Assembly (NCBI RefSeq): GCF_001179985.1
Contig: NZ_CVSI01000058.1
Coordinates: forward strand, 62,001 to 126,000
Length of the DNA stretch: 64,000 nucleotides
Direction of reading: 5' to 3'
Source: Candidatus Pelagibacter communis
GTDB lineage: Bacteria > Pseudomonadota > Alphaproteobacteria > Pelagibacterales > Pelagibacteraceae
The translations under genes were made by a program, and so were the position numbers. The notes under the pieces are model-generated. The model saw only the letters and a program-made list of their open reading frames with translations. It did not search any database and had not been told where the DNA came from. Shown piece by piece: positions 10,228 through 47,251 of the stretch (within the stretch, counting starts at the first letter, position 1; each line of letters starts with the position of its first letter).

Positions 10228-10303
10228 TGGCTCCTCGGGCAGGACTCGAACCTGCGACCAATTGATTAACAGTCAACTGCTCTACCAACTGAGCTACCGA
10301 GGA
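10228..10303 (-). tRNA. tRNA-Asn (anticodon GTT)
   Basis: A 76-base tRNA with encoded CCA on the minus strand. Acceptor TCCTCGG/CCGAGGA and anticodon loop reading GTT within GACTGTTAATC. It faces the PraR-like gene and lies 51 bases downstream of tRNA-Cys, so the two tRNAs are probably transcribed together. Confidence 0.97.
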
Positions 10304-39147: not shown

Positions 39148-42024
39148 TTATGCAATTTTTTTAAATTTACCGTTTAGTAAATTTTTTAAAAATTTACCTG
39201 TATAGCTTTTAGAAACATTGCAAATGCTCTCTGGATTTCCCTCTGCGATAATTTCTCCACCCTTTACACCACCGTCAGGGCCCATATCTATAATATGATC
39301 TGCTGTTTTTATCACATCTAAATTGTGCTCTATAACTATAACTGTATTGCCCGTTGCAACAAAGGTATGCAAAATTTCTAAAAGTTTTTTAATGTCATGT
39401 TGATGTAATCCTGTAGTAGGTTCATCAAGAATATATATAGTTCTACCTGTTGATCTTTTTGACAATTCTTTAGCTAGTTTAATTCTTTGTGCTTCTCCAC
39501 CAGATAATGTGGTTGCCTGTTGTCCAATTTTTATATAACCAAGTCCTACTTTTTTAAGTGTCAGTAACTTTGATCTAATATTTGATATATTTTCAAAAAA
39601 ATCACAACCCTCATCAACGGTCATATTTAATACATCAGCTATACTTTTATTTTTAAATTTAATTTCTAAAGTTTCTCTATTATATCTACTTCCTTTACAT
39701 TCATCACATGTTACATATACATCAGGAAGGAAATGCATTTCATAAGTTATAACACCGTCTCCTTCACAAGCCTCACATCGGCCGCCCTTAACATTAAATG
39801 AAAATCTACCTGGTTTATATCCTCTGCTTTTAGACTCTGGTAAATTAGTAAACCAATCTCTTATTGGTCCGAAAGCAGCTGTGTAAGTAGCAGGGTTAGA
39901 TCTTGGAGTTCTACCTATTGGTGATTGATCAATATCAATTACTTTATCTATCAGTTCAATTCCTTTAAATCCTTTAAACGGCATAGGAATTTTTCTTGAT
40001 TTGTTATTATTTAAACTCATATTCAAAGCATTAAATAAAGTTTGTAAAATTAAAGTAGATTTACCACTACCTGATACTCCAGTGATACAAGTAAAAGTTC
40101 CAAAAGGAATTTTTAAATCGACGTTTTTTAGATTATTACCTGAAGCACCAAGAATTTGTAAAAATCTTCCATTTTTACTTAATCTTCTTTTCTTTGGTAT
40201 TGGTATATAAAATTTATTACATAAGTATTTACCAGTTATACTTTTTTCATTTTTCTTTATCTCATCTAATCCACCATGAGCTATAACTTCTCCACCTTTA
40301 CTTCCAGCCTCTGGGCCTAAGTCAATGATGTAATCTGAATTTTCAATTGTCTCAGTATCATGCTCTACCACAATTACAGTGTTACCTAAATCTCTTAATC
40401 TTTTTAAAGCATTAATTAATTTTACATTGTCTTTCTGATGAAGACCAATAGATGGTTCATCCAGCACATAAAGAACACCGGTTAGACCAGAACCAATTTG
40501 GGAAGCCAACCTAATTCTTTGGGATTCTCCACCAGATAAAGTTCCTGACTCTCTTGATAAAGTTAAATAATCTAATCCAACATTTAATAAAAAATTTAGT
40601 CTTTCATTTATTTCTTTTAAAATGTGTTCTGCAATTTTTATTTGTCTTTCATCTAATTTCTCGTTTAAACACTTGAACCATTTTTCAGCATCTATAATAG
40701 ATTTTTCACATATTTCACTTATGTGTTGATTGTCTATTTTCACACATAATGCTTCTTCTTTTAATCTATACCCGTTACAAGCCTCACATTTAGTATCTGA
40801 TTGATATTGTGATATTTCCTCTCTTTTCCAATCACTATCAGTTTCTAAATATCTTCTTTCAAGATTATTTACTACACCCTCAAAAGTTTTTTTATGCGAA
40901 TATTTTTCATATCCATCATCGTAAGAAAACTTAATTTCCTCCTCATCTGAACCATATAAAATTATATCTTTTATTTTTTTTGGTAATTTTGACCATTTTT
41001 CATCTAAAGAAAAATTATAATGTTTCGCTAATGATGATAATGTTTGAGCATAATATAGTGAGCTTGATTTAGACCATGGCTCAATCGCACCTTCAGCAAT
41101 TGTCTTTTTTTCATTTGGAATAACAAGATTAGGATCTACATTTAATTTTATACCAATACCATCACATTCAACACATGCTCCATATGGACTATTAAATGAA
41201 AATAATCTTGGCTCAATTTCTTCTATAGTAAAACCGCTTTCAGGACACGCAAATTTAGAAGAAAATATTATTTTTTCTTTTTTTCTAAATTTAGCTGGTA
41301 ATGTTTCATTTTCGTATTCTACATATAATAATCCATTAGACAAATTAAGTGAAGTTTCGATACTTTCAGCTAAACGATTGCCTAAATCAGAATTTAGTAT
41401 TATCCTATCAACTAATATTTCTATTTCATGTTTTATTTTTTTATTTAATTCTGGGATGTTATCTATCTCATAAATTTTCCCATCAATCTTAATTTTTCGA
41501 AAACCTCTTTTTTTATAAGATAAAATTTCTTTTTTATATTCACCTTTACGACCTCTCACAATTGGTGAAAAAAGATAAATAGTACTTTTTTTTGGTAATG
41601 TTTTAATTTTATCTACAATTTGAGTTACTGTTTGTGATTTTATTTCTTTGCCAGTAAATGGTGAGTAGGGGATGCCAACTCTAGCAAATAATACTCTCAT
41701 ATAATCATATATTTCAGTAACAGTTGCTACTGTTGATCTAGGATTTTTTGACGTATTTTTTTGTTCAATAGATATTGCGGGACTTAAGCCTTCTATTAAA
41801 TCAACTTTAGGCTTTTTCATTTTATCTAAAAATTGTCTTGCATAAGCTGATAAACTTTCAACATATCTTCTTTGACCTTCGGCATAGATAGTATCAAAAG
41901 CTAGAGATGATTTTCCTGATCCTGACAGACCAGTTATTACTACAAATTTATCTTTTGGAATATCTAAAGAAATATTCCTTAAATTATGTTCTTTTGCCCC
42001 TTTAATAACTATCTTTTTAATCAT
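39148..42024 (-). CDS. uvrA: UvrABC excinuclease subunit A
   Basis: Damage-recognition ATPase of nucleotide excision repair. 958 residues with two ABC-type ATPase halves: Walker [15 protein letters not shown] near residue 32 and [16 protein letters not shown] in the second half; signatures [16 protein letters not shown] and [15 protein letters not shown]. Zinc-module cysteines are visible in [26 protein letters not shown] and [16 protein letters not shown]. Full-length. The start is 74 bases from the divergent ssb gene. No LexA-type box was recognised between them. Confidence 0.97.
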
Positions 42025-45091: not shown

Positions 45092-45585
45092 TGAAAAAAG
45101 TTATTTATCCAGGAACATTTGACCCAATTACTTTTGGCCATATAGATTTAATTAAAAAAGCATTAAATATTTTTGATAACCTTATAGTTGCGGTTTCAGA
45201 TGGTAATAATAAAGAATATTTATTTTCAGCTGAAGAGAGAGAATATTTAGTTAAAAAATCTCTTTTTAATGATCTTAAATTTAAAAAAAATCAAGTAAAA
45301 GTAGTAATATTTAATACGTTGACTACTGATTTTTGCAAAAAAATGAAATCCAATGTTATACTTAGAGGACTTAGGGCAACCTCAGATTTTGAATATGAGT
45401 TTCAACTTTCTGGAATGAATAAAAAATTAAATGATAAAATAGAAACTGTATTTTTAATGTCTGACCCTCAGAATCAAATTATTTCATCTAAATTAGTAAA
45501 AGAGATAGCTGATTTAAAAGGAAATGTAAAAAAATTTACTACTAAAAGTGTATTAAAACATTTAAAATTAAAATTAAATGGTTAG
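45091..45585 (+). CDS. coaD: Phosphopantetheine adenylyltransferase
   Basis: Penultimate step of coenzyme A synthesis, forming dephospho-CoA. 164 residues with the nucleotidyltransferase motif YPGTFDPITFGHIDLI (residues 5-20, TxGH-type GHID), RGLRATSDFEYEFQLSGMN and SSKLVKEIADLKGNV. Typical length. It overlaps the following cyclophilin gene by eight bases. Confidence 0.97.
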   Translation: MKKVIYPGTFDPITFGHIDLIKKALNIFDNLIVAVSDGNNKEYLFSAEEREYLVKKSLFNDLKFKKNQVKVVIFNTLTTDFCKKMKSNVILRGLRATSDFEYEFQLSGMNKKLNDKIETVFLMSDPQNQIISSKLVKEIADLKGNVKKFTTKSVLKHLKLKLNG

Positions 45586-46129
45586 AGTATTTATCTTAAT
45601 ATTTATATTTATTAGTTCTAATTTATTGGCGGAGGAAAATACTATGATTTTAAAATTAAAAGATGGTGAAGTAAAAATTGAATTATTTCCAGATGTAGCA
45701 CCTGGACATGTTAAAAGAATTAAAGAATTAGCGAATTCAGGAAAATACAACGGTGTTGTATTTCATAGAGTAATAGATGGATTTATGGCACAAACAGGTG
45801 ATGTACAATTTGGTAATTCGGACAGCAAAGAATTTAATTTGAGTAGAGCAGGTATGGGCGGTTCTGATTTACCAGATTTAAAAGCTGAATTTAATAATTT
45901 GCCACATGAAAGAGGAACATTGTCTATGGCCAGATCTCAAAATCCAGATAGTGCTAATAGTCAGTTCTTTATTTGTTTTCAACCAGCTCCATTTTTAGAC
46001 AGACAATATACTGTATTTGGCAAAGTAATTAGTGGAATGGAATTTGTTGATAAAATTAAAAGAGGCGACTCAAATAATAACGGAGCTGTGACTGATCCAG
46101 ATAAGATAATATTTTTTAAATCAGAATAA
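45578..46129 (+). CDS. Periplasmic peptidyl-prolyl cis-trans isomerase (cyclophilin)
   Basis: Folding catalyst for exported proteins. 183 residues: a signal peptide (about 1-18, VFILIFIFISSNLLAEE), then a cyclophilin domain with VVFHRVIDGFMAQTGD, FNNLPHERGTLSMARSQNPDSANSQFFIC and the C-terminal KVISGMEFVDKI. Catalytic Arg in FHRVIDGF, and Phe/Gln of the PPIase site are present. The order gyrA-coaD-ppi-tgt is the usual alphaproteobacterial one, minus queA between ppi and tgt. Confidence 0.94.
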   Translation: MVRVFILIFIFISSNLLAEENTMILKLKDGEVKIELFPDVAPGHVKRIKELANSGKYNGVVFHRVIDGFMAQTGDVQFGNSDSKEFNLSRAGMGGSDLPDLKAEFNNLPHERGTLSMARSQNPDSANSQFFICFQPAPFLDRQYTVFGKVISGMEFVDKIKRGDSNNNGAVTDPDKIIFFKSE

Positions 46130-46138
46130 TTTTAGTTA

Positions 46139-47251
46139 ATGACATTAAAAAAATTTAATTTTAATGTTCTTAAAAAAGATAAATTTGCAAGACTTGGAAA
46201 AATAATTACTAGCCGTGGTACAATAGATACTCCAGTATTTATGCCAGTTGGAACCCAGGCAACTGTTAAAGGTACATTTATTAAAGACGTTATTAAGGCT
46301 GGAAGTCAAATTGTTTTATCCAATACTTACCATTTAATGATTAGACCTGGTGCAGATAGAGTAAAAAAAGCTGGTGGTTTACATAATTTTATGAACTGTA
46401 AAGTACCAATCTTAACTGATTCTGGCGGTTATCAAATTATGTCATTATCTAAGTTAAACAAAATTGATAGATCTAAAGGTGCAATATTTAATTCTCATAT
46501 TGATGGAAAAAAATTCATATTAAGCCCAGAACAAAGTATTAAAATTCAAAAAAAACTAAACTCAGATATTGTTATGGTACTAGATGAATGTCCAAGAAAA
46601 ACATTAAGCTATGATACGATTTTGAATGCTGTAATTTTATCAACTGAGTGGGCGAAACGATCAAAAAAAGAATTTGGAAGAAACAAACATAAAGCTCTTT
46701 TTGGTATTGTTCAAGGAGGTTTATTTAATGATCTTAGATTAAAGTCTCTAAAAGAATTAATTAAAATTGGATTTGATGGATATGCTATAGGGGGATTGGC
46801 CGTAGGGGACTCTCAAAAAGAGATGTTTAAGGTTTTGGATTATCTTAAGAACTACATGCCTATCAATAAACCTAGATATTTAATGGGTGTTGGGACACCT
46901 TCAGATATACTTGGATCTGTAATGCGCGGCGTTGATATGTTTGATTGTGTATTACCAACTAGGGCTGGTAGAACTGGCCTAGCATTTACTTGGAACGGAA
47001 GAGTAAATATTAGAAACGCAAAATACAAAAAAGACAACAAACCACTCGATGAATCGGTAAAAATATTTGATTTAAACAAATACTCTAAAAATTACATCAA
47101 TCACTTATTCAATACTAACGAAATGTTAGGCTCTATGATTCTTACATTAAATAATATTAATTTTTATCAAGAATTAATGTTTGAGATTAGAAAGAATATT
47201 AAAAGAGGCACTTTTACCAAATTTTATACAAAATATGCTAATAAGTTATAA
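46139..47251 (+). CDS. tgt: tRNA-guanine transglycosylase lacking zinc-ligand cysteines
   Basis: Would exchange guanine-34 for the queuine precursor preQ1 in GUN tRNAs. 370 residues with TIM-barrel motifs intact: general acid Asp in LTDSGGYQIMSL, GGLAVGDSQKEM, and the nucleophile Asp in VDMFDCVLPTRAGR. Unusual: the C-terminal zinc site, normally CxCxxC ... H, reads PLDESVKIFDLNKYSKNYINHL, so the three cysteines are Val, Ile and Leu and only the His remains. The Glu of the GGLAVGE substrate loop is Asp. The queA gene commonly found just upstream is absent. Activity is therefore uncertain. Confidence 0.9.
   Translation: MTLKKFNFNVLKKDKFARLGKIITSRGTIDTPVFMPVGTQATVKGTFIKDVIKAGSQIVLSNTYHLMIRPGADRVKKAGGLHNFMNCKVPILTDSGGYQIMSLSKLNKIDRSKGAIFNSHIDGKKFILSPEQSIKIQKKLNSDIVMVLDECPRKTLSYDTILNAVILSTEWAKRSKKEFGRNKHKALFGIVQGGLFNDLRLKSLKELIKIGFDGYAIGGLAVGDSQKEMFKVLDYLKNYMPINKPRYLMGVGTPSDILGSVMRGVDMFDCVLPTRAGRTGLAFTWNGRVNIRNAKYKKDNKPLDESVKIFDLNKYSKNYINHLFNTNEMLGSMILTLNNINFYQELMFEIRKNIKRGTFTKFYTKYANKL

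Follow-up and report, generated by a model that had tools for sequence, protein, structure and literature searches.

The window, by which we mean the whole 64,000-nucleotide stretch of the Candidatus Pelagibacter communis contig that was analysed, carries a full-length gene for tRNA-guanine(34) transglycosylase (TGT; Table 1). Its reading frame has no internal stop, and the product matches the TIGR00430 equivalog profile over residues 8-369 at 450 bits (cut-off 306.75) and PF01702 at 463 bits. The protein is about 50% identical along its whole length to TGTs of the Zymomonas mobilis/E. coli type (TIGR00430, PF01702), with which it has the catalytic and preQ1-pocket residues, the aromatic positions of the dimer hot spot and the predicted fold in common. 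Unlike them, it has none of the four zinc ligands, a Tyr for Trp326 and an Asp for Glu235. The gene order around tgt is gyrA-coaD-ppi-tgt, with no queA between ppi and tgt; where both genes were seen in genomes of family f2, which belongs to this order too, queA immediately precedes tgt. The window's own genome, which is 75.5% complete, gave one TGT match, and a zinc-holding second copy was not found in it. The window also encodes a G34 tRNA of the kind that TGT modifies, presumably a substrate of this enzyme.

Table 1. Window coordinates of the genes and codons discussed in the text
Feature	Position	Strand	Basis or remark
tRNA-Asn (GTT)	10228..10303	-	G34 tRNA
uvrA (UvrA)	39148..42024	-	
ppi, peptidylprolyl isomerase	45578..46129	+	directly upstream, 9 bases before tgt
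tgt, tRNA-guanine(34) transglycosylase	46139..47251	+	370 aa; ORF and profile matches
Asp224 codon, equivalent of Glu235 (preQ1/guanine peptide switch)	46808..46810	+	alignment
Val307 codon, column of first zinc Cys	47057..47059	+	alignment to Z. mobilis TGT; computed from ORF start
Ile309 codon, column of second zinc Cys	47063..47065	+	alignment
Leu312 codon, column of third zinc Cys	47072..47074	+	alignment
His322 codon, equivalent of Z. mobilis His333 (dimer hot spot), no zinc ligand	47102..47104	+	alignment
Asn338 codon, column of zinc His, fourth lost ligand	47150..47152	+	alignment (T-L-N-N-I) and surveys

The zinc ligands of TGT we take to be the three cysteines of a CxCxxC motif and the histidine of T-x-H-N-I, a combination that is absent from the window protein. 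Alignment to Z. mobilis TGT, in which the ligand histidine lies within T-x-H-N-I and 26 residues past the third cysteine, places Val307, Ile309 and Leu312 in the cysteine columns, just as an earlier note on this DNA had read them. That note had also held that only the histidine remains, and here it was mistaken. The histidine it saw is His322, whose Z. mobilis counterpart, His333, is described in the available part of PMC5395182 as a residue of the dimer interface, within its aromatic hot spot. Because the zinc-histidine column holds Asn338 and the cysteine columns hold Val, Ile and Leu, none of the four ligands is left. The two histidine columns also behave differently across our surveys. A histidine occupies the T-x-H-N-I column in every TGT that has all three cysteines (88 of 88 from Alphaproteobacteria and 80 of 80 from other classes), whereas the His322 column has another residue in three of the 88 full-site proteins and a histidine in all 22 zinc-less ones.

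How widespread is this loss? A TGT was found in 220 of 247 genomes of the SAR11 order, with one match per genome and no internal stop in the matches listed. The zinc columns were read in 122 of the 220, a non-random draw made up of 31 genomes of family f2 (L002-L031, the 30 best scores, and L032, which the QueA search brought in), 20 from genera g2-g6, 40 higher-scoring genomes of genus g1, the 30 of the 45 lower-scoring g1 genomes that best match the window protein, and the window's own genome. Two ligands are kept in 87 of these genomes, one in nine and none in 26; three or four are never kept. The earlier note had named SAR11 relatives with an intact CxCxxC, together with evidence of decay in this copy, as a finding that would refute its reading, and such a motif occurs in 0 of the 122. 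What remains of the site differs between families. Among the 91 genomes of f1, the first cysteine is kept in 54, the second in eight, the third in none and the histidine in 59, while the 31 f2 genomes keep only the third cysteine and the histidine. If cysteines were not regained, these complementary remnants imply an ancestor with all three, and therefore suggest that f1 and f2 lost the site separately. Eight of 149 genomes that are at least 90% complete lack a TGT (G099, G105, G107, G112, G141, G148, G177 and G178, all of genus g1), which may reflect gene loss or mere incompleteness.

The same loss is found elsewhere in the class. A class-wide alphaproteobacterial sample yielded a TGT in 129 of 142 genomes, and 110 loci from 109 genomes were read, the remainder including the lowest scores, fragments and members of SAR11. 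The full zinc site is present in 88 of these 110 loci and at least one ligand is missing from 22, of which two keep three ligands, 11 keep two, eight keep one and one keeps none. Since 22 of 110 TGTs from other Alphaproteobacteria break it, the zinc site is a usual feature of the family and not a condition of membership. A sample of the phylum gave a TGT in 109 of 110 genomes. Outside Alphaproteobacteria, all four ligands are present in each of the 80 TGTs read (of 81 with a match), and the substitutions at the ligand columns are therefore not ordinary family-wide drift. The phylum sample held 18 further alphaproteobacterial TGTs; ten were read, mainly ones with low scores, and all ten lack some ligand.

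A DNA pattern search for the zinc-less motif C-P-A-S-R-D-Y-S-R-A-Y-L-H-H-L added at least 120 loci (L247-L366), and all of the matches listed are TGT loci. They include Rhizobium leguminosarum, R. tropici, Agrobacterium tumefaciens, Mesorhizobium and Brucella/Ochrobactrum as well as Aureimonas, Aurantimonas, Nitratireductor and Defluviicoccus. Loss of the third cysteine follows from the construction of the pattern, but the first cysteine is also gone in 118 of the 119 in-frame matches listed. The 120th, L253 from the complete genome of Rhizobium sp. RCAM05350, has the same motif with a Ser at the first cysteine, in a TGT frame broken upstream of this C-terminal motif by either a pseudogene mutation or a sequencing error. 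The TGTs of Rhizobium, Agrobacterium and Brucella resemble the window protein in being single preQ1-type enzymes with an incomplete zinc site; unlike it, they keep the second cysteine and often the histidine (SCSH, SCSN). Loss of the zinc site is thus common to soil, plant and animal associates and to marine relatives.

This distribution bears on the alternative that survives best, namely that SAR11 dropped the site to spare zinc, which is scarce in the open ocean. The earlier note had proposed just such an adaptation to zinc-poor water. The absence of a full site from every SAR11-order genome read agrees with the proposal, as does its absence from some marine Rhizobiales (Aurantimonas, Nitratireductor and Roseitalea). 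UvrA in the window may offer a parallel: the CxxC of its first zinc finger reads C-P-E-S, the Ser standing where the best PDB match has a cysteine. This UvrA does, however, keep the partner CxxC as well as its later CxxC clusters. The TGT site is missing no less often from Rhizobium, Agrobacterium, Brucella/Ochrobactrum and Mesorhizobium, which live in soil or with hosts, and its loss has no link with small genomes (medians of 2.7 Mb for the 88 full-site and 2.75 Mb for the 22 zinc-less alphaproteobacteria, p 0.35). Moreover, each listed SAR11 genome has one TGT, unlike the paralogue pairs known from zinc sparing. Because relatives from both ocean and soil show this loss, zinc-poor seawater is an unlikely reason for it, and these observations contradict it as a general cause, although low zinc may have contributed within SAR11 itself.

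The number of losses was approached with a tree of 137 TGTs from which the ligand columns had been removed. Parsimony requires at least 11 changes of state on this tree, only two of which are forced by starred branches, and the data do not reject a single clade of all the zinc-less rows but L244, 48 in number (p-AU 0.366). L217, which its group codes place among Alphaproteobacteria outside the SAR11 order, sits within the SAR11 part of the tree. A single origin of all the losses is neither shown nor rejected by the tree. The complementary remnants and the differing substitution patterns favour several. A deep branch of TGTs with GG[SCT]LG-type pockets (L231-L246) keeps the zinc site except in L244 (LISH), apparently another separate loss.

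Could the zinc have been lost along with a change of substrate, for example to insertion of queuine once QueA and QueG had gone? We profiled the queuosine pathway in 34 genomes, 26 of f1 and eight of f2. QueA is present in 41 of the 247 SAR11-order genomes, all of them in f2 and none in f1, and QueG in seven of the eight f2 genomes and 0 of 26 from f1. No QueH was found in any of the 34. The transporter QPTR is present in 26 of 26 f1 genomes, where one example is a queuosine precursor transporter by TIGR00697, and in seven of eight from f2. For QueF there was no match above the cut-off in the 34 genomes, and the one match checked is FolE. QueC matches above the cut-off in 32 of the 34 genomes (best 32.3 bits) appear to come from other PP-loop enzymes; the one that was checked is MnmA, and the rest were judged by score and frame length (about 250-660 aa). 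From its gene content, the f1 TGT most likely inserts imported preQ1, using QPTR and TGT without QueA, QueG or QueH.

The gene content of f1, with the transporter but no QueA, QueG or QueH, would also suit a switch to queuine, as would the one pocket change in the window TGT, Asp224 at the position of Glu235. The available part of PMC3660597 describes Glu235 as the hydrogen-bonding partner of the Leu231/Ala232 peptide, whose orientation differs between guanine and preQ1 through a flip. The earlier note had seen this Asp in the GGLAVGE loop, and it is real; it recurs in 12 of 127 SAR11 rows, including the window gene (counted twice) and its nearest relatives. These 127 rows represent 122 genomes, the window gene having been entered twice and four genomes being double. 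The pocket argues otherwise. The residues that mark it as preQ1-type according to the same partial source (PMC3660597), Cys158 and Val233, are Cys151 and Val222 in the window protein, and their equivalents are kept in 127 of 127 SAR11 rows. The queuine-type motif GG[LS][AS]G of Chlamydia-like TGTs, as defined in the accessible portion of PMC11570991, is absent from the window TGT, which reads GGLAVGD, and the queuine-type, GGSLG-like clade of our tree keeps zinc in 14 of its 15 rows. Zinc loss is also independent of pathway loss, because f2, with QueA and QueG, and QueA-bearing Rhizobiales with Rhizobium-type TGTs are zinc-less too; of 18 alphaproteobacterial genomes whose TGT is zinc-less or was not read, 16 have QueA. 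The altered substrate suggested by the earlier note is not supported, and we consider a link between zinc loss and substrate change quite improbable.

The tgt-plus-transporter pathway of Pelagibacter is not new, since its tgt-only state, its GGLAVG pocket and the proposed salvage of preQ1 are already in print, as the available text of PMC11570991 makes clear. That source groups Pelagibacter with Bartonella henselae, which is host-associated, unlike Pelagibacter, and which likewise salvages with TGT and QPTR, the rest of the pathway being gone and the pocket reading GGLAVG. According to it, the enzyme of B. henselae was functional in an E. coli mutant when preQ1 was supplied; the zinc site is not discussed in the text available, where the word zinc occurs 0 times. 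A Bartonella-like genome of 1.5 Mb in our sample (G456), from the family group that holds Rhizobium-type genomes, has no QueA and a zinc-less TGT of the SCAN type. Its GGLAVGE starts at residue 217, or 216 if counted from the second Met, and the same partial source places the B. henselae GGLAVG at 216 (PMC11570991). Should G456 prove to be a Bartonella, function of a zinc-less TGT would already have been demonstrated.

AlphaFold2 was given the window protein and 16 TGTs from Rhizobiales and other Alphaproteobacteria. The model has a pLDDT of 87.6 and a pTM of 0.89, with the lowest block means at residues 101-110 (68), 41-50 (71) and 301-310 (72). It superposes on Z. mobilis TGT at 1.4 Å over 365 residues (Z 53.5), and its top Foldseek rows have TM scores of 0.94-0.95. 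The model shows compatibility with the TGT fold; whether metal is needed lies beyond what AlphaFold2 can show, and it may simply reproduce a fold learned for the family. For one zinc-less Rhizobium TGT, a near-identical PDB chain was not found, and the best matches were the Z. mobilis series. That zinc or another metal is bound at a different site seems very improbable. Asp and Glu ligands cannot be judged from sequence, which leaves this alternative some room, but among the eight Cys and His residues of the window TGT (65, 82, 87, 120, 151, 184, 270 and 322) none is newly placed near the old site, no new cluster is formed and several are active-site or interface residues.

The gene is under strongly purifying selection and not in decay. 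Comparison with four relatives of 97-99% identity gives a dN/dS of 0.026-0.045, and within the zinc segment (residues 296-345) the same comparisons give a pN of 0 to 0.008 against a pS of 0.24-0.36. Ratios against more distant relatives were given no weight, because dS is near or past saturation. Selection has kept the functional residues as well. The catalytic Asp94 and Asp266 (equivalents of Asp102 and Asp280) are intact, as the earlier note had stated, and the equivalents of Asp102, Asp156, Cys158, Gln203, Gly230, Leu231, Val233, Met260 and Asp280 are all kept in 127 of 127 SAR11 rows. In the dimer hot spot, Tyr330 and His333 are kept in all 127 rows and Phe92 in 125 (Tyr in two), and Trp326 is Tyr in all 127. 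With these aromatic positions kept, the new dimer partner that the earlier note had entertained is not supported, while its view of a full-length, maintained TGT without a zinc site holds for the whole order as read, with at most two ligands in 122 of 122 genomes. Decay of a gene not yet interrupted, which the eight near-complete genomes without a TGT and the loss of the surrounding pathway might recall, is the least probable alternative given these ratios, the invariant catalytic residues and the absence of stops from the SAR11 matches listed, and assembly incompleteness alone could account for the missing TGTs.

We therefore favour, as the probable explanation, a working homodimeric TGT of the bacterial preQ1 type whose folding no longer depends on structural zinc. 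The metal clasp, formed by CxCxxC and a histidine in the next long helix, ties down the C-terminal subdomain beside the dimer interface and takes no part in glycosyl exchange itself. The alphaproteobacterial fold may have become able to dispense with the metal; after a first ligand was lost the others could have drifted, with the catalytic, pocket and dimer residues still selected. Such loss would have happened more than once, and separately in the two SAR11 families if cysteines are not regained. The lineage of the window would be an end point, with Val, Ile, Leu and Asn in the four columns, the first three able to pack as a hydrophobic patch. A search for compensating residues among columns tied to the zinc-less state gave weak signals confounded by phylogeny, none of them clear. 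Counting against a zinc-free enzyme is the review-type statement, in the accessible part of PMC9508795 and citing mutagenesis of the E. coli protein from 1995, that TGT requires zinc for activity.

We found no report of a zinc-less TGT in the literature searched, which covered few subscription papers. Zinc-independent variants of zinc proteins, such as the C- ribosomal proteins, are usually second copies beside the zinc form. TGT is like them in losing Cys ligands while the protein is kept, and differs in that there is one per genome. With the arguments for and against in rough balance, the class may represent a natural experiment in which a metalloenzyme has repeatedly become metal-free, its reaction, substrate and partner unchanged, and of which SAR11 is the end point. 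If this is true, zinc in TGT serves as a clasp that can be replaced, and the graded series of remnants, with three, two, one or no ligands, would allow the steps of metal loss to be replayed. The same series would make it possible to test directly how a protein comes to do without a structural metal. Should all of the SAR11 TGTs sampled, and a fifth of the sampled alphaproteobacterial ones, work without zinc, family-based annotation of the zinc site would be in error in many genomes, and inhibitors aimed at the dimer interface on the zinc side should be developed without presuming a metal. The distribution also advises caution, in that ligand losses seen in a single genome are not to be taken as adaptations to habitat.

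Two irregular TGT genes were also seen in the surveys. One, in an alphaproteobacterial genome of 1.0 Mb (G301:C2:34354-35484), has a single in-frame TGA, which may be either recoded or the mark of a broken gene. The other, in a complete 5-Mb genome (G429:C1:689578-690638), is split by a frameshift into two overlapping frames.
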